Below, in pieces: positions 23,226 to 30,882 of a DNA stretch of 32,236 bases (within the stretch, counting starts at the first letter, position 1; the number at the start of each line of letters is the position of its first letter). The translations under genes were made by a program, and so were the position numbers. The notes below the pieces were generated by a model, which was not told the origin of the DNA, ran no database searches, and saw nothing but the letters and a program-made list of their open reading frames with translations. The stretch comes from Burkholderiaceae bacterium (GTDB taxonomy: Bacteria; Pseudomonadota; Gammaproteobacteria; Burkholderiales; Burkholderiaceae_A), in NCBI GenBank assembly GCA_018882795.1, contig VERJ01000027.1, forward strand, positions 1-32,236. The letters run 5' to 3'.

Positions 23226-24134
23226 CTACATCATGGCGGCAGAAGACTGTTCCTCTTCTTGCTGCAGACTGAAAATTGAGGTGTAGCCACCGGACCAATC
23301 TGGCGGCAACAGGCAGGGCCTTGGGTCATGGTGGGCCCATGCGGCCCGCTCTCCACGCAGAATCGCCTGATCGTGCGCCGGACGAATGGGATTCACGGTG
23401 TAGGGGAATGCGTCTGCCGAGGTGAGCGTGTAGAGCAATAACGGACGCCCCGTGTCGGAGAGATTTTTTGGTGACGCATGCAGTGTTCTGCAATTGTGCA
23501 ATGTCAGCGAGCCCGCGGGTCCCGTAAGGGTGACGGCCTTCTCCAGGTCCAAGCGCCGCACATCTTCATCGGAGAGGCAGCCTGTCCAAGCGCCGGCGCT
23601 GTTGTACTGGGAGGGCATGGGATCCATGAGATGGCTTTTGGGCATGACCATCAGGGGGCCATTATCAGGGCCACAGTCATAAATGTAGGTGCCGATGGTC
23701 AGGGGCGAATAGTTGGTGTGCGGCCAGAAGCTGATGTCATAGTGCCATTTCACTTCCTCGCCGCCCTTGGCCCATTTGAAATTAAGTTTGGAGTGGTGGA
23801 ATTTGACATGTGGTCCGACGAGGTCGGCAACGATGTCGGGCACCGGACCCTTAGTGATATATTCCCAGAAGACAGGATGGTGTTCCGTGGGGTTGGAGAC
23901 GCGGCGCAGACGGGGCGCATCCGGCCTGTGATCAGGCTCAATGTCAAACACCTTGTCAGACTTTGCAACTGAACGGGATCGCTCAACGAGTTCCTCTGTC
24001 GCAGCGCGAAGTTTCTTTAGCCACTCATCTCCAATAATTCGCTCAAGCAAAATATAGCCTTCCGAGAAATAGAACTCGCGTTGTGATTGAGTGAGCACCC
24101 GTGGGGGAATTGCAAGAATCTGCTCTGGTGTCAT
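23226..24134 (-). CDS. Phytanoyl-CoA dioxygenase (PhyH) family Fe(II)/2-oxoglutarate-dependent oxygenase
   Basis: The 302-residue protein carries the facial triad of the family: H131 and D133 in WHYD, and H219 in TLHAS. R230 lies 11 residues further on, the place of the 2-oxoglutarate-binding Arg in human PhyH. PhyH relatives hydroxylate very different substrates, from acyl-CoA to ectoine and phosphonates, so the reaction here is unknown beyond an O2- and 2-oxoglutarate-dependent hydroxylation in the cytoplasm. The ATG at 24134 has an AAGGAGA ribosome binding site. It is the last gene of the leftward operon, 35 nt after the GntR gene, and a strong hairpin follows. Confidence 0.88.
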   Translation of the reverse strand: MTPEQILAIPPRVLTQSQREFYFSEGYILLERIIGDEWLKKLRAATEELVERSRSVAKSDKVFDIEPDHRPDAPRLRRVSNPTEHHPVFWEYITKGPVPDIVADLVGPHVKFHHSKLNFKWAKGGEEVKWHYDISFWPHTNYSPLTIGTYIYDCGPDNGPLMVMPKSHLMDPMPSQYNSAGAWTGCLSDEDVRRLDLEKAVTLTGPAGSLTLHNCRTLHASPKNLSDTGRPLLLYTLTSADAFPYTVNPIRPAHDQAILRGERAAWAHHDPRPCLLPPDWSGGYTSIFSLQQEEEQSSAAMM

Positions 24135-24169
24135 GCGCCTAGTCTCCTTTTTTAATGATGTTGAATAGC

Positions 24170-24907
24170 TCAGTAATCGGTGCTTACCGTGTTCATGGTG
24201 AACGCCTCGATATGGTCGATCAGTTCATCTAGGGCACGGGCAGCCATGCGTTCGTTTCGATCAGCGATGGCCTTGGATACTGCGCCATGAAGCTTGGCCA
24301 TTAGTTCTGTGTCATCGGTTTGTCGATGATGCATAAACCAGAAGCGGCGAGAAAGTCCGTGCATCAATCCCATTGCTGCTGCGGAAAATTCGTTTCGGGC
24401 TGCACGCAAGGACAAATCGTTGAACTCCTTGTCTGCACGAATAAAGCTTTCGTAATCGCCTGTTTTTGCAGCACGATCAAAGCGTTTGGTCAGCTCTTGG
24501 AATTCGATGATTTCTTCTGCTGAGGCCCGCCTGGCGGCGCACTTCACTACCAGACGCTCAATCTCGCGACGCGTTTCTAGAAGCCGAAGCTGCCGCTTGA
24601 TATCGATCTCAGACACCAGGATGCCCCGCTGAGGGATGATGTGGACCAGATGCTCGCGGGCCAGGCGCTGCAGTGCTTCCCGAACCGGAGTGCGGCCAAT
24701 GCCCAAGTGAGCAGAGAGCTCCGACTCGCTGATGGCCCCACCGGGCGCGAGCTCAAGCGTAACGATCATCTCTTCGATCTTGCTGTAAGCCTGATCGGTA
24801 AGGCTCTTGGGTCTTGATTGGATGCGGCTTTTTCTTGCGCCGGTTCCTGCTGGCTTTCGTTTGGCGGGCACGCGGGAAACTGTGCGATTTGCAGTGGCGG
24901 TGCTCAT
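24170..24907 (-). CDS. GntR-family (FadR/FCD-type) transcriptional regulator
   Basis: The 245-residue protein has a basic tail of about 35 residues, a GntR winged helix at about 38-105 (LTDQAYSKIEEMIVT, LGIGRTPVREALQRL, IPQRGILVSEI) and an all-helical FCD effector domain from about 110 to the end. FCD regulators usually sense an organic acid and repress the catabolic genes next to them. The gene overlaps the alcohol dehydrogenase gene by 4 nt (ATGA) and precedes the PhyH-like gene. It is the natural candidate to bind the shared 13-bp motif at 26230 and 27043. Confidence 0.93.
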   Translation of the reverse strand: MSTATANRTVSRVPAKRKPAGTGARKSRIQSRPKSLTDQAYSKIEEMIVTLELAPGGAISESELSAHLGIGRTPVREALQRLAREHLVHIIPQRGILVSEIDIKRQLRLLETRREIERLVVKCAARRASAEEIIEFQELTKRFDRAAKTGDYESFIRADKEFNDLSLRAARNEFSAAAMGLMHGLSRRFWFMHHRQTDDTELMAKLHGAVSKAIADRNERMAARALDELIDHIEAFTMNTVSTDY

Positions 24908-26157
24908 GGGGTGTCTCCAGAGAGTCTGCCGAGAAAGGTATTGCGAACGATATCGGCGAAGGCCTGTTGTGGGGGCTGAATCGGGTACGCCTTTGCAAGC
25001 CGCACAACATTGAGCCCATCGCCCACAAGCTGCGCAAGCTGACTTTCCTGAATTCCGAAGGCTTTTAAGTCTGTGGGCATGTCCAGTCGCTTGATCAGCG
25101 CTCGGGTGAGCGTCGCTGCATCGCGAGCTTGGCCGAGGGGATCTGTCTTTGAGGAACCCGCAATGCGGCCGATTTCGGCAAGCTCGGCTGTTCTTGCGTG
25201 CACTAGGTTGTCCATCACATAGGGCAGGAACACCGCATTCGTTCTGCCGTGGGTTTCATGGGTCATGCCCGCCAAGGCATACGCGAGCGCATGCACAGCA
25301 TGTAGGCCAGCAGTTGCGTAGGAGAGTGCCGCGTACAGGCTGCTGTAGGACATGCCGGTCCTGGCGGTGAGATCTTTCGGCTCGGCAAAGGCGGTCGGTA
25401 GGTGCGCAAAGCAGAAGCGAACAGATTCGCGGGCAAACATGATGGTAAGTGGATTACGGCCGCTGTAGGCCGGGTCCGCCTCTTGGGCAGCGCCAAAATC
25501 CCGCGCATCCATGGTGATCCAGGATTCGATTGCGTGCGTCAGTGCATCAATGCCGGCATCGGCGGTCACGCGGGGCGGGCAACTCAGTGTCAACTCTGGA
25601 TCAATGATGGCAATCAGCGGCCGAAGGTCATTGCCCATCAGGGCGACCTTGGTGGCGCTGCCGGGTTGCAGAAAGATCGCGCCCGCGGTGATCTCTGAGC
25701 CGGTGCCAGAGGTGGTGGGCAGGGCCACCAGGGGCAAGGGCCTTCCCGGCCAATTGCTATGGCCAACAAATTCCGCTACCGGTCTGCGGTAAGGCAATGT
25801 CAGGCTGAGGCCCTTTGCAAGGTCAATATTGCTGCCGCCACCAAGCGCAATCACGGCATCAATGGGCGTGCCACCTGCCTGAGCGAGCACCTCGGCGCTT
25901 GCGCGATCACAGAGCTCTGTCGATGGGTCTGGTTCGCCGCTATCGCAGACGAACGTTTTGATTCCCGCCGCATCAAGTGTTGAAGCGAGGCTGGTGACTA
26001 GGGGGGTAGATTTACTAAAAAACCGATCAGTCACGATCAGTACCGTGGCCCATCCCCGGCTCTTACAGAAGGGCGCCACACGCTGAATACCACCAGCCTG
26101 AACCACCAGGCGAGTCGGGCTGCAGAAAAAAAGGGGGTGTTCGGGCGATAGGGTCAT
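24904..26157 (-). CDS. Iron-containing alcohol dehydrogenase
   Basis: The 417-residue protein is a group III (Fe-type) NAD(P)-dependent alcohol dehydrogenase. The nucleotide-binding GGGSNIDLAKG is at 106-116 and PTTSGTGSE at 147-155. The metal ligands are D204 and H208 (DALTHAIE) plus H289 and H303, with the same 4- and 14-residue spacing as in lactaldehyde reductase FucO. It would oxidise an alcohol or 2-hydroxy acid, or reduce the carbonyl. It is first in the leftward operon and diverges from the alpha/beta hydrolase gene across 113 bp. The ribosome binding site is weak (GGAA). The substrate may be the product of one of the two oxygenases nearby; this is inference. Confidence 0.92.
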   Translation of the reverse strand: MTLSPEHPLFFCSPTRLVVQAGGIQRVAPFCKSRGWATVLIVTDRFFSKSTPLVTSLASTLDAAGIKTFVCDSGEPDPSTELCDRASAEVLAQAGGTPIDAVIALGGGSNIDLAKGLSLTLPYRRPVAEFVGHSNWPGRPLPLVALPTTSGTGSEITAGAIFLQPGSATKVALMGNDLRPLIAIIDPELTLSCPPRVTADAGIDALTHAIESWITMDARDFGAAQEADPAYSGRNPLTIMFARESVRFCFAHLPTAFAEPKDLTARTGMSYSSLYAALSYATAGLHAVHALAYALAGMTHETHGRTNAVFLPYVMDNLVHARTAELAEIGRIAGSSKTDPLGQARDAATLTRALIKRLDMPTDLKAFGIQESQLAQLVGDGLNVVRLAKAYPIQPPQQAFADIVRNTFLGRLSGDTP

Positions 26158-26229
26158 GGTTATTCCGGGGGTAAGTTAAAAGAGGATTGGCTGCCTGGAT
26201 TCGCTCTTTAGGATACGATTAGAACACAA

Positions 26230-26242
26230 CTAATATATCACT
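26230..26242 (+). promoter_or_regulatory. Motif CTAATATATCACT, copy 1, in the divergent promoter region
   Basis: This 13-mer lies 28 nt before the hydrolase start codon and 72 nt before the Fe-ADH start on the other strand. An identical copy sits in front of the membrane hydroxylase gene (27043). The core TAATATATCA is a near-palindrome (8 of 10 positions). It could be an operator for the GntR regulator or a shared -10 region (TAATAT). Confidence 0.5.
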
Positions 26243-26270
26243 GAGCATTTTGTTGCAAAAGGGGATCCGC

Positions 26271-27002
26271 GTGATTGATCGGCTTGAGGTGCGCTGTGTG
26301 GGGGAGGGTCCGCCCTTGATTCTTGTGCATGGCATCCAGGGCAATGCCGATGCCTGGACTGCTGTGTTGCCTGCGCTCGCGGATGGATTTCGCTGTGTAA
26401 TGCCCAATCTTCCAGGCAGAAAACTCTCCCCGCGTTGGCGGCCGACAGACGGTCCTATTGAGTCCTTCTACAGCCTCGGACATTACGCCCAAATACTGGC
26501 CGAATTGGTGGATCGCCATAGCGACTCGGGTCGATGGCCAGTGCGTATTGCAGGCTGGAGCATGGGTGTAAGCGTGATTTTGGAATATGCCCAGCGCTTT
26601 GGACTCGCGTCGGTGGCGGGAATCGCGCTGTGTTCCGGCACACCGAAGGCTGCTTCGGGCGCCCTGTGGTTTAAGTCGGACACGCTTGAGGGGATCATGG
26701 GCGAGGCCCAGCGAAGGGCCGAGCGTCTCGGCCTGAAGGATCCTGCCGATCACGAGGCAGTTGCCTGGTCGTGGCGCTCGGTTTTTGCTGCTGATCATGT
26801 ACAAATTTTATCCACAATCCGCGTACCCACACTGGTGGTGCACGGCGAGCAGGACGACGACTGTCCAGTGGCGCACGGCCAATCGATCGCCAGCGGTATA
26901 CCGGGTGCCCAATGGTGCCCGTTACCCGGGGTCGGTCATTCCGTCTTTGGTGACTCGGCCGTTACGGTAGGTCAGGCCATGTCGCAATTTTTTCGCGGTT
27001 GA
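26271..27002 (+). CDS. Alpha/beta hydrolase
   Basis: The 243-residue cytoplasmic protein has an HG-type oxyanion loop (LILVHGIQGNADAW), the nucleophile elbow GWSMG, a likely acid in the HGEQDDDCPV segment and the catalytic His in GVGHSVFGD. The fold family includes esterases, C-C hydrolases and haloperoxidase-like enzymes, so the reaction cannot be named. The frame is open from a TTG at 26250, but the GTG at 26271 comes six bases after AGGGG and matches the normal start of the fold. It is divergent from the Fe-ADH/GntR/PhyH operon and 74 nt ahead of the membrane hydroxylase gene. Confidence 0.85.
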   Translation: MIDRLEVRCVGEGPPLILVHGIQGNADAWTAVLPALADGFRCVMPNLPGRKLSPRWRPTDGPIESFYSLGHYAQILAELVDRHSDSGRWPVRIAGWSMGVSVILEYAQRFGLASVAGIALCSGTPKAASGALWFKSDTLEGIMGEAQRRAERLGLKDPADHEAVAWSWRSVFAADHVQILSTIRVPTLVVHGEQDDDCPVAHGQSIASGIPGAQWCPLPGVGHSVFGDSAVTVGQAMSQFFRG

Positions 27003-27042
27003 CAGCCTGGAAGTCGGCTCTTAATATTCCGCCCGTATAAAT

Positions 27043-27055
27043 CTAATATATCACT
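27043..27055 (+). promoter_or_regulatory. Motif CTAATATATCACT, copy 2, before the hydroxylase-TRAP operon
   Basis: This is an exact copy of the 13-mer at 26230. It ends 21 nt before the ATG at 27077, similar to the 28 nt at copy 1. Beyond the 13-mer the flanks differ, with TTGTGTAC following here and ACACAA preceding copy 1. Confidence 0.5.
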
Positions 27056-27076
27056 TGTGTACGAAAGGAGCCCACG

Positions 27077-27889
27077 ATGATGAATGAACGCCAGCGGCGT
27101 TTTCGGGAGCAATACAAGAATCGGATTAGCCCTTTTTACAATGGCATCGTGCATGTGGCCGTAATGTTTGCGGTCGGCATCACTGCCATCTGGTACTGCT
27201 TATCGCACATCCAGAATGCCACTTGGGAGTGGCTGATCATGATTCCTGTGTTTCTTGCGGGAAATTTTATTGAGTGGGCCATGCATACCTACGTGATGCA
27301 CCGTCGTATCGATGTATTCGCCTTGCGGGCTATCTATGAGCGTCACACCCGGGAACATCACCAATACTTCACCGATAACGACGTCACTATCGATACGGTT
27401 CGGGAATTTCGTATTGTGTTTTTCCCGTGGCGCGTGCTGATTGTACTCGGCGTCTTTGGCACGATTTTGGGATTTATCGCGTCAAAAGTTTTTAATCCAA
27501 ACGCTGGCTACATTCTGTACATCACGATGGTCGGCCACTACCTGCTGTATGAGACCTTCCATCTCTGCTGCCATGTTCACGAGAACTGGTTTGTGCGCAA
27601 CATGCCGTTTGTCAACACGATTCGACGCCACCATACGGCCCATCACAACCAGGGCATCATGATGCACAAGAATATGAACCTGACTTTCCCGATCGCAGAC
27701 TGGTTTATGAAAACCAGTGATTTGAATCGCGGTCTGCTTGGCCATCTCTTTAATGGCTACGACGAAACCCATATCAAGCCCGAATTGAAGCCCATCATTG
27801 CGCGGTTTCGGGTATCCGAGATTCAGGATCAGCGCGTGACGCTGGATGGTCCGCAGTTAAGTCCTGAAGAGCAGAAGGCGCTTGCTTAA
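27077..27889 (+). CDS. Membrane di-iron fatty acid hydroxylase / sterol desaturase superfamily protein
   Basis: The 270-residue protein has several membrane segments (about 25-45, 52-68, 118-136 and 143-160) and the histidine clusters of the superfamily: H70/H75 (HTYVMH), H90/H94/H95 (HTREHH), H162/H166 and the HHTAHH box at 185-190. These bind a di-iron centre that uses O2 to hydroxylate a lipid-like substrate at the inner membrane. Closer naming, such as carotenoid, sterol or ceramide hydroxylase, is not possible from sequence alone. AAAGGAG at 27064-27070 supports the ATG at 27077; the ATG one codon later is an alternative. The TRAP genes follow in the same direction. Confidence 0.88.
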   Translation: MMNERQRRFREQYKNRISPFYNGIVHVAVMFAVGITAIWYCLSHIQNATWEWLIMIPVFLAGNFIEWAMHTYVMHRRIDVFALRAIYERHTREHHQYFTDNDVTIDTVREFRIVFFPWRVLIVLGVFGTILGFIASKVFNPNAGYILYITMVGHYLLYETFHLCCHVHENWFVRNMPFVNTIRRHHTAHHNQGIMMHKNMNLTFPIADWFMKTSDLNRGLLGHLFNGYDETHIKPELKPIIARFRVSEIQDQRVTLDGPQLSPEEQKALA

Positions 27890-27923
27890 GGCCGATTCGT
27901 ATGACAACCAACAGGAGACAAGA

Positions 27924-28994
27924 ATGAAACGACGCCAATTCGTAGGTTCAGCCATTGGGGGGGCTGGACTACTCGCTGCCACGCAGGCGGTAGCGCAAAC
28001 GAGCGGTCCCACCTATAACTGGAAGATGGCCACCGGCTGGCCTGGCGGTCCGCTCATGGACATTGGCGCCAAGGCCTTTGCGGAGCGCATGGACTTTTTG
28101 TCGGGTGGTCGGTTCAAGATCCAGACGTTTCCGGGTGGCGCCTTAGGCAACGCGTTAAAAGTGCCGGAGACTGTGAAAAATGGCCTCGCCGAGTGTGGGC
28201 ATACCTGGATGGGCTATGACTGGGGCAAGGATCCCACGACCGTACTCTTTGGCGGTTATGCCGGATCCTTTGATACCGAGCGCATGGTGCATTGGCTTTA
28301 TGAGTCTGGTGGTGCAGACTTGCAGCGCCAGTTCCGGGATGAGGCCGAGGGTGTAATCTCAATGCCCTTATTTATTCGGACGGCAGAGGTGTTTCTGCAT
28401 TCCCGTAAACCGGTGAAGACCTTGGCCGATCTGAAGGGACTGAAGCTGCGCACTGCCGGCGCCTGGCTGGAGATGGCCAAGGATCTTGGAGCAGCGCCCG
28501 TGACCACGGCGGGTGGCGATGTATTCCCGATGCTTGAGCGCGGTGCGATCGATGCGACAGAGTGGGGAACCTTGTGGGAAAACGTTTCACCTGGCTTTTA
28601 TAAGGTCGCCAAATACCTGATCTATCCAGGCGTCCATCAGCCCACCGCACCGTTTGAGTTGGTCATCAACAAAAACGTCTGGGCCAAGATGCCTGCTAAC
28701 GACAAAAAGCTTGTCGAACTCGTGGCCAAGCTAGTCACAATGGAGAGTTGGATGCGTATCGGTGCCGAGGATGCGAAGGCCTTCGATTTCTATAAGAAAC
28801 AGGGTGTCCAGGTCATTGAGTTGGCCGACGAAGTCCAGTTCGCAGCCCGCAAGATTGGTCTATCGTGGGCTGACAAGACGGCCAAGGAAAACAAGTTCAA
28901 ATGGTTTGCTCGTGTTCATAAGAGTCTGCAAGACTTTGAGGCTGCGTGGACCGAGGCCGACGACTATCGTAAGGTCAAAGTGAAGAAGGCCTAA
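27924..28994 (+). CDS. dctP: TRAP transporter substrate-binding protein, DctP family
   Basis: The 356-residue protein has an N-terminal export signal with twin arginines (MKRRQFVGSAIGGAG, then a cut near AVAQT), so it is probably sent to the periplasm by the Tat route. The DctP fold is clear: LKGLKLRT with the conserved Arg for the carboxylate, GGDVFPMLERGAIDATEWGT, and YPGVHQP. The ATEW and GVHQP pieces resemble the TakP branch that binds 2-oxo acids, but the ligand is not certain. The longer frame from 27882 is rejected because the ATG at 27924 has AGGAGA and the signal peptide. It lies 34 nt behind the hydroxylase gene. Confidence 0.92.
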   Translation: MKRRQFVGSAIGGAGLLAATQAVAQTSGPTYNWKMATGWPGGPLMDIGAKAFAERMDFLSGGRFKIQTFPGGALGNALKVPETVKNGLAECGHTWMGYDWGKDPTTVLFGGYAGSFDTERMVHWLYESGGADLQRQFRDEAEGVISMPLFIRTAEVFLHSRKPVKTLADLKGLKLRTAGAWLEMAKDLGAAPVTTAGGDVFPMLERGAIDATEWGTLWENVSPGFYKVAKYLIYPGVHQPTAPFELVINKNVWAKMPANDKKLVELVAKLVTMESWMRIGAEDAKAFDFYKKQGVQVIELADEVQFAARKIGLSWADKTAKENKFKWFARVHKSLQDFEAAWTEADDYRKVKVKKA

Positions 28995-29007
28995 GGTAGT
29001 TCTTTCC

Positions 29008-29036
29008 GCTATGGATACCCAGAGGGTATCCATAGC
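29008..29036 (+). other. Perfect 13-bp hairpin between dctP and dctQ
   Basis: GCTATGGATACCC and GGGTATCCATAGC are exact complements with an AGA loop. GTTTC follows, so it is not a classical terminator. Hairpins after a binding-protein gene usually stabilise its mRNA or reduce read-through, giving more periplasmic protein than membrane subunits. Confidence 0.75.
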
Positions 29037-29056
29037 GTTTCACTCGGGGGGAGAAG

Positions 29057-29557
29057 ATGAAAGAAGCAATCGCTCGACTTGAGCGGGCGGTGGAGCTTAT
29101 GGGTGTGGCTTCCGCGATGCTGCTAGTGCCACTGGTGCTGGCCACTACATGGGAAGTCGTGGCCCGTTATGTGTTCGGTGCGCCAACGATTTGGGCCTAC
29201 GAGGTCGGTTATTTCCTAACAGGGAGCCACTTTCTTCTAGGCTTGTCTTACACCCTAAAGCACGGCGAACATATTCGGATTGACATTTTCAGCACCAAGA
29301 TGAGCCCAGCGCTACGGCGGCAGATTGATTTGGTGATGTATGCCTTGGTTACGATTGTCATGGCGTGGCTGACTTACGCGCTGTTGAACTATCTTCTGAA
29401 TGGACTCGCCGCCGGCGAGCGCACAGGCCAGTCTGCGTTGAACCTGCCCGTTTGGCCGTTTCGTCTGGTGTTTGTCATCGCATTTTTTACGTTCACCGTA
29501 CAACTTATTCTTGAATTTCTTAAAACGCTCGTGATGCGCCATCGGCAGGGAACTTAA
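29057..29557 (+). CDS. dctQ: TRAP transporter small membrane subunit, DctQ family
   Basis: The 166-residue protein has four hydrophobic segments and the DctQ marks WAYEVGYFLTG and HGEHIRIDIF at about 52-80. It forms the membrane complex with DctM. The ATG at 29057 follows GGGGGAGA. dctM starts 5 nt after its stop. Confidence 0.92.
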   Translation: MKEAIARLERAVELMGVASAMLLVPLVLATTWEVVARYVFGAPTIWAYEVGYFLTGSHFLLGLSYTLKHGEHIRIDIFSTKMSPALRRQIDLVMYALVTIVMAWLTYALLNYLLNGLAAGERTGQSALNLPVWPFRLVFVIAFFTFTVQLILEFLKTLVMRHRQGT

Positions 29558-29562
29558 TTACC

Positions 29563-30882
29563 ATGGACTACTTGCCTTTTCTGATGCTGCCGATGGCCTT
29601 TATCCTGATGTTCCTGGGAACGCAGGTGGCCTTTGCCATGATCCTTACCGCAGTCACCTTTGGTTTGATTACCTTTGGTGATCGTGTGGTGTTCCAGTTC
29701 ATAGAAAAGATCGACGATCTCTCTTCGAACTTTGTGTTTGCCGCGATTCCGTTATTTGTGTTTATGGGATCCATGTTGGAGAAATCTGGCATTGCAGACC
29801 GTCTGTTCGAGGCGATTCATATTTGGACACGACGCCTGCCAGGTGGACTTGCATTGGCCACCGTGATGATGTGCATCATCTTTGCAGCCTCAAGCGGCGT
29901 GATTGGTGCCACGGAGTCGGTGGTGGGCTTGTTGACCATCCCTATCATGCTGCGCTATGGCTATAACAAAAGCCTGATCAGCGGTGTGATCTGTGCTGGG
30001 GGGTCTCTGGGAACCATTATTCCGCCCTCGGTCGTGGTGGTGGTGATGGGTCCGCTTGCCAATGTATCGGTAGGCGATCTGATGTACGGCATGCTGATCC
30101 CCGGTCTGGTGATGGCAGCCCTGTATCTTGTTTATATTTTCGCTCTCTGCGTGATCAAGCCAGAGGCAGGCCCGCGAATTCCCCGTGAACCGAATGAACC
30201 TTCATTTACAGAGAAGCTCTGGATCAGCAGCCGAAATCTCGTGCCGCCATTGTTTATGATTTTTGCGGTGTTGGGTTCAATTCTTCTTGGTTGGGCCTCG
30301 CCAACAGAGGCGGCTGCTATTGGGGCCCTCTGCTCAGTTCTGCTCACCATCCTATATCGCCAGTTCAGCATACGTGGCCTGTATGAGGCCTTGCTGAAGA
30401 CCCTTCGGGTCACGGCAATGATCATGGCCGTGTTGCTGGCAGGCACGTTATTTACGGGGGTGTTTATCGGATCTGGGGGTATCAACACAGCGAATCAGGT
30501 GATTGCAAGCATGTCACTTTCGCCCTGGATGCTTCTGGCCCTTCTGCTGTTCATTGTATTTTTGGCAGGTTTTTTCCTCGATTGGATCTCGATCGTACTG
30601 ATCTTTATTCCCATCTTTGTGCCGCTGATTCAGGCTGCTGGTTTTGATCCGGTGTGGTTCTGTATCCTGTTCTTGATCTTGATTCAGACCAGCTATTTGA
30701 CACCGCCGATGGCGCCCGCGATCTTTTATCTGCGGGCCGTTGCGCCACCCGAGATCACCATGGCCCACATGTATCGGGGAATGGTGCCATTCATTTCATT
30801 ACAGGTACTGACCTTGGTGATTGTCATGGTGGTGCCGCAGACCGTGACATGGCTGCCTAGCGTGATGTTGCAGTTTCGCTGA
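29563..30882 (+). CDS. dctM: TRAP transporter large membrane subunit, DctM family
   Basis: The 439-residue protein has about 12 membrane segments and the DctM signatures: FVFAAIPLFVFMGSMLEKSGIA near residue 57, then SGVIGATESVVGLLTIP and GGSLGTIIPPSVVVVV near 147-160. It is the sodium- or proton-coupled permease that takes the solute from DctP. Length and layout are complete. A strong inverted repeat follows 9 nt after the stop and closes the operon. Confidence 0.94.
   Translation: MDYLPFLMLPMAFILMFLGTQVAFAMILTAVTFGLITFGDRVVFQFIEKIDDLSSNFVFAAIPLFVFMGSMLEKSGIADRLFEAIHIWTRRLPGGLALATVMMCIIFAASSGVIGATESVVGLLTIPIMLRYGYNKSLISGVICAGGSLGTIIPPSVVVVVMGPLANVSVGDLMYGMLIPGLVMAALYLVYIFALCVIKPEAGPRIPREPNEPSFTEKLWISSRNLVPPLFMIFAVLGSILLGWASPTEAAAIGALCSVLLTILYRQFSIRGLYEALLKTLRVTAMIMAVLLAGTLFTGVFIGSGGINTANQVIASMSLSPWMLLALLLFIVFLAGFFLDWISIVLIFIPIFVPLIQAAGFDPVWFCILFLILIQTSYLTPPMAPAIFYLRAVAPPEITMAHMYRGMVPFISLQVLTLVIVMVVPQTVTWLPSVMLQFR

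Follow-up and report, generated by a model that had tools for sequence, protein, structure and literature searches.

A 13-bp word recurring exactly in two promoter regions of a cluster of catabolic and TRAP transporter genes is best explained, with a probability that we put at about 0.77, as part of the operators of an autoregulated FCD-type GntR repressor predicted to control feADH-gntR, abh and fah-dctPQM. The cluster belongs to a Burkholderiaceae bacterium (GCA_018882795.1), and the stretch analysed, further called the window, comprises positions 1 to 32,236 of the forward strand of contig VERJ01000027.1 within a genome sequence of 2,031,623 bases.

Gene Cluster and Repeated Word

The proposed binder is encoded by gntR (24170–24907, minus strand), whose product combines a GntR helix-turn-helix (PF00392, 66.4 bits) with an FCD domain (PF07729, 69 bits), both above cut-off, and whose orthologues were aligned. 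Downstream of it on the same strand lies phyH (23226–24134; phytanoyl-CoA dioxygenase family, PF05721), and the iron-containing alcohol dehydrogenase gene feADH (24904–26157, minus strand, PF00465) overlaps gntR. On the plus strand, abh (26271–27002; alpha/beta hydrolase, PF00561) is followed by a gene named here fah (27077–27889), coding for a 270-aa protein with several His boxes, and by the TRAP genes dctP (solute-binding protein, 27924–28994, PF03480), dctQ (small permease, 29057–29557, PF04290) and dctM (large permease, 29563–30882, PF06808). For abh the start GTG 26271, preceded by AAAAGGGG, was chosen by eye in preference to the TTG 26250 of the ORF list. The fah product gave no family match in Pfam, NCBIfam, PHROGs or among solved structures; its His boxes give it a hydroxylase-like look, and 45 of the 300 genomes searched in the order contain a match to it. 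Naming the DctP substrate was given up, the best PDB matches, including 2hzk and a lactate-binding protein, being too weak to fix the ligand. The whole cluster (23226–30882) may have been acquired. Among the genomes listed in the search with the gntR alignment, an orthologue was not found in two of the same genus and ten of the same family, and the best named matches (about 72%) come from Hydrogenophaga and Methylibium.

The word CTAATATATCACT stands on the plus strand at 26230–26242 and 27043–27055, as the initial annotation had it. Copy 1 adjoins the start of feADH at 26157 and is located between the divergent feADH-gntR and abh, facing the gntR operon as had been proposed, and copy 2 precedes fah as the first gene after it. 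Dinucleotide-preserving shuffling of the two spacers (26158–26270, 113 bases; 27003–27076, 74 bases) gave a shared 13-mer in 2 of 20,000 rounds, which bears out the earlier reckoning that such a match is unlikely by chance. The similar distance claimed for the two downstream start codons holds if abh starts at GTG 26271 (28 bases, compared with 21 from copy 2 to fah ATG 27077); to TTG 26250 the distance is 7 bases. The genome scan that had been suggested returned these two exact copies only, the other five places with up to 2 mismatches having 2 each, and made no further member of the regulon evident in this genome: counts at up to 3 mismatches (57 and 58) are not above those of the reversed-pattern control (74 and 67). 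Among the matches listed, both window sites rank highest in the genome, and the sole next candidate placed (C45:45736) falls inside a reading frame.

The conserved unit proved to be a 14-bp imperfect palindrome rather than the 13-mer, operator-like in appearance, with copy 1 covering 26229–26242 (ACTAATATATCACT) and copy 2 covering 27042–27055 (TCTAATATATCACT). In relatives it has the degenerate consensus ACTRATATATYAGT; their spacers contain ACTGATATATCAGT and its variants, the perfect form being found in L076. A palindromic matrix built from 27 relatives with the window left out (maximum score 25.3; L069 and L092 contributed no site to the 27-site matrix) assigns 22.4 to copy 1, 20.5 to copy 2 and 10.1 to the third-best place in the window. 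A candidate operator at 23853 within phyH (2 mismatches) was rejected for its score of 10.1 and its location inside a gene. Since matrix sites were chosen for palindrome likeness, the matrix alone proves nothing; the search with the window word and the analysis of held-out orthologues, both given below, are independent of that choice.

Association of the Palindrome with the gntR Orthologue Group

Ten of the forty relative loci collected were located by gntR and belong to named genomes (Hydrogenophaga, Methylibium, Piscinibacter and proteobacterial MAGs); the other thirty lie around 30 of the 45 fah matches in genomes of the order. Some loci are closely related to each other (for instance L084/L086 and L065/L067), and L064 and L082, whose contigs have the same length, appear to come from adjacent parts of a single contig. 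In 27 of the 40 loci, fah has a gntR homologue (49–73% identity) no more than 3.5 kb away; fah stands without nearby gntR in 11, and gntR without fah in 2 (L061 and L062, kept outside the 27/11 count). With up to 3 mismatches allowed, 23 of 27 gntR-linked loci have the window 13-mer in the 200 bp before fah, and none of the 11 unlinked ones does, the latter including L094–L097 with a more distant fah (36–52%) and L075, a 5-kb contig from which gntR could be cut off. Tightening to 2 mismatches left 12/27 against 0/11, while shuffled upstream regions of the 27 (50 rounds, up to 3 mismatches) yielded on average 0.38 and at most 3. The failures are L058 and L092 (4 mismatches), L069 (5) and L070, where the site starts beyond 200 bp. 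By these counts, the motif accompanies this group of gntR orthologues and not simply the target gene. Loss of the motif in relatives with the same genes, which had been named as grounds for giving up the proposal, was mostly not observed; the clear exception is L069 (genome G193), in which gntR (52%) adjoins fah (73%) and no site of at least 9 occurs in 14 kb, so that the operator there would have been lost or changed.

Searches with the gntR alignment in 369 genomes (E ≤ 1e-40) and 399 genomes (E ≤ 1e-60) supplied a held-out set of 11 orthologous gntR loci from genomes outside the matrix, seven second gntR matches without a locus being left out. A strong site (18.8–23.4) is present in 6 of them (L128, L141, L145, L147, L148 and L152), namely in all six loci with fah or abh and in none of the five without. 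Those five, L127, L140, L154, L155 and L156, have no site of at least 14, their best values being none above 6, 12.4, 8.9, 13.6 and 11.5, respectively; loci from the E ≤ 1e-60 search span only 1.5 kb on each side, and sites can be missed there. A score of 14 was reached in 2 of 220 shuffled loci, and a strong site in one of 17 loci of paralogous GntR proteins (L054). The held-out gntR of L152 has an internal stop. In the window's family the same palindrome has further settings: in L054 (850–863) a paralogous FCD gntR, neighbour of an enolase-superfamily-like gene, starts 8 bases after it, in L120 (1501–1514) it stands between dctP and an RraA-like gene, and in L119 (1501–1514) between RraA-like and IlvD-like genes; apart from gntR and dctP, these genes are named by the look of their translations. 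Given these occurrences near other genes in related genomes and in L054, the palindrome is not exclusive to this gntR orthologue group, and further regulators may use it as well.

Predicted Regulon

The suggestion that a GntR regulon might include the TRAP genes gained support, along with the contrast between linked and unlinked loci and the held-out sites, from sites before dctP itself. Sites of at least 16 occupy the abh/feADH spacer and the region before fah (in L061 before dctP) in L058, L059 and L061, in positions as in the window. Relatives with both sites include the culturable Hydrogenophaga borbori and Methylibium sp. Root1272. Where fah is absent (L061, L062), a site precedes dctP, and the dctP–gntR interval of L062 contains two. 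Within L068 (genome G102), about 3.5 kb and a change of strand separate dctP, which follows a LigB-family gene, from fah, and each of the two is preceded by a site (14.9 for dctP, 22.4 for fah); the abh/feADH spacer of this locus has a weak match only. A search of the whole G102 genome with ACTRAYATRTYAGT, allowing up to 1 mismatch, returned only those two places in L068; as background, the pattern was met once in five of six searched genomes without a linked gntR, CATG being the usual centre there, and some genomes with sites according to the matrix escape it. Weaker sites upstream of gntR in L082 (14.0), L090 (14.1) and L071 (11.9) are in keeping with autoregulation.

Beside the sites or in the clusters, further genes were noticed for PanB-like ketopantoate hydroxymethyltransferase, D-2-hydroxyacid dehydrogenase, PF12831 FAD oxidoreductase, corrinoid B12-binding and URO-D proteins and LigB (L083 4607–4631 and 12827–12851; L088 11990; L063 860–2323; L058 578–1900; L068 12516–13580). 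These extra genes may point to the breakdown of a branched or methylated hydroxy acid.

Position Relative to Promoters and the Shifted Unit

A consensus scan predicts a sigma-70 promoter TTGACA-17-TAATAT for fah-dctPQM (26999–27027, plus strand, 10/12), and copy 2 begins 14 bases past it. A weaker predicted promoter, TTTGCA-16-TATATT (26232–26259, minus strand, 9/12), is directed towards feADH-gntR and has its -10 element inside copy 1. A TTGACA-like hexamer starting 45 to 17 bases before the operator was found in 16 of 29 loci, the window included, compared with 3/29 and 1/29 in control intervals. A bound dimer would meet the polymerase at or after the -10 element, which makes repression the likelier sign.

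The flanks carry a weaker unit displaced by 11 bases. Shifting the matrix accordingly over these 29 loci, again with the window, gave a mean of -4.5 for the left unit (shuffled flanks -22.0, sd 1.5) and of -13.7 for the right one (shuffled flanks -22.6, sd 1.5), neither being reached in any of 2000 shuffles. L083 contains two full units 11 bp apart; the window's own shifted units are weak (-3.9 to -14.7). Weaker boxes 7–12 nt from the centres of GntR sites are described for many groups, not all (Suvorova et al., 2015, PMC4494728), and on that description the 11-bp shifted unit is a known trait.

Proposed Mechanism and Alternative Explanations

The palindrome, its conservation, its dependence on the gntR group and its position are read directly from the sequence; binding of the protein, repression as opposed to activation and the inducer are what we infer from them. 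A GntR dimer would bind the palindrome, perhaps helped by the weaker unit. Being placed at or just after the promoter, an occupied operator would exclude RNA polymerase: protein on copy 1 would keep it off the feADH-gntR and abh promoters, which amounts to autoregulation, and protein on copy 2 off the fah-dctPQM promoter. A ligand, probably the TRAP-carried acid or its breakdown product, would release GntR, so that uptake and catabolism would be switched on together. Counting against the copies as GntR operators are L069 with no site of at least 9, the five of 11 held-out loci lacking a strong one, a core without the GT/AC boxes common in FadR-type operators and the occurrence of the palindrome outside this orthologue group.

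The most serious competitor, to which we give roughly one chance in eight, is that the same GntR binds and activates, or has both effects, since the sequence does not fix the sign and some sites are far from the gene (L083, L088). It is opposed by the usual location of the palindrome, downstream of a TTGACA-like hexamer and level with the -10 element or past it, where a repressor would sit, and by the reported repression by FCD proteins such as AlkR from a site over the -10 element (PMC12042122). Improbable, too, is that the palindrome serves as operator of another regulator, for example of a paralogous FCD protein encoded elsewhere in the genome: a second FCD-like protein (C26:33695–34366, 29% identity) is indeed encoded there, and the occurrences in L054, L119 and L120 would suit this explanation, but before one and the same target gene the palindrome comes and goes with the linked gntR, and a strong site is missing from 16 of 17 paralogue loci.

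Still less credit is due to the explanation, raised by the initial annotation, that the word represents shared -10 promoter elements only. It contains TAATAT/TATATT hexamers in an A/T-rich core and the minus-strand -10 is predicted inside copy 1, so the proposal holds locally; at copy 2 it fails, the predicted -10 ending 14 bases earlier and outside the palindrome. Moreover, conservation is symmetric over 14 bp, and none of the 11 loci that lack this gntR, yet need promoters as well, has the motif before fah. The -10 alternative therefore describes a local overlap at most. A chance repeat or a functionless copied segment was rejected on both counts and deserves practically no weight: loose matches are common (4 in the window at up to 3 mismatches, against 2.58 expected), yet the shuffled spacers speak against coincidence, the word is kept in relatives, and identity ends at the 13 bases, the differing flanks arguing against a copied segment.

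Comparison with Known Regulators

Preferring the reading of the copies as operators of an autoregulated GntR repressor, we regard this as a good new regulon prediction within a well-known kind of gene switch, the target sequence being newly predicted. The open-licence PMC literature yielded nothing linking TGATATATCA to GntR, unrelated titles only for GATATATC with GntR, no title naming GntR among the matches listed for four versions of the core, nothing on a GntR/FCD palindromic operator with a TRAP transporter, and no gene cluster of GntR, TRAP transporter and phytanoyl-CoA dioxygenase; restricted to that literature, the search is no proof of novelty. If correct, the prediction assigns a specific binding site and a small set of target genes to an uncharacterised regulator. 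It would also place the unannotated fah product in one probably inducible pathway with a hydrolase, two oxidoreductases and a TRAP transporter. More speculative, and somewhat against the odds in our estimate, is that the regulator represents an undescribed FCD group travelling with the TRAP/catabolic cluster, with AT/AT replacing the GT/AC boxes in an operator of palindromes that overlap at a spacing of one helical turn (11 bp) and would accommodate two dimers side by side on one DNA face, an operator type common to other regulators in related genomes.

Of the traits of the FCD group, the domains are present, as is an A/T-rich palindrome near the own and neighbouring genes, and the GT/AC boxes (TKGT/ACMA) are absent. 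By its domains the protein is classed as an FCD GntR regulator; the predicted operator is non-canonical for that group. The core TRAT-AT-ATYA has A in 94% and G in 4% of cases where FadR-subfamily boxes have G, and this departure makes the system a usable case for a change of FCD DNA specificity. An explanation of the missing G by recognition-helix residues was dropped, the correlation published in PMC4494728 concerning the neighbouring base. As described there by Suvorova et al. (2015), the FadR subfamily resembles the present system in the FCD protein, the A/T-rich palindrome before own or neighbouring genes and the weaker box near the centre; its operator boxes are TKGT/ACMA, with exceptions listed such as BioR, unlike TRAT/ATYA here. 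The BioR motif given in the same source, TTATMKATAA, shares the frame TNAT-N2-ATNA without a GT box; the second base is G or A here, and BioR governs biotin genes. AphS/BphS, as presented in PMC6449761, are likewise GntR-family repressors of a catabolic cluster in Betaproteobacteria with an even 14-nt palindrome, often at several sites, but their operator AAATmTCGAkATTT serves aromatic-compound genes and has the centre TCGA, whereas the centre here is TATA. AlkR of Pseudomonas aeruginosa, whose structure (PDB 9isw) is a match in our structure search, is portrayed in PMC12042122 as an FCD repressor paired with an oxygenase gene and acting at a palindrome over -10 regions, much as proposed here, although its operator ATTGTCAGACAAT retains the GT/AC boxes and its targets are other ones.
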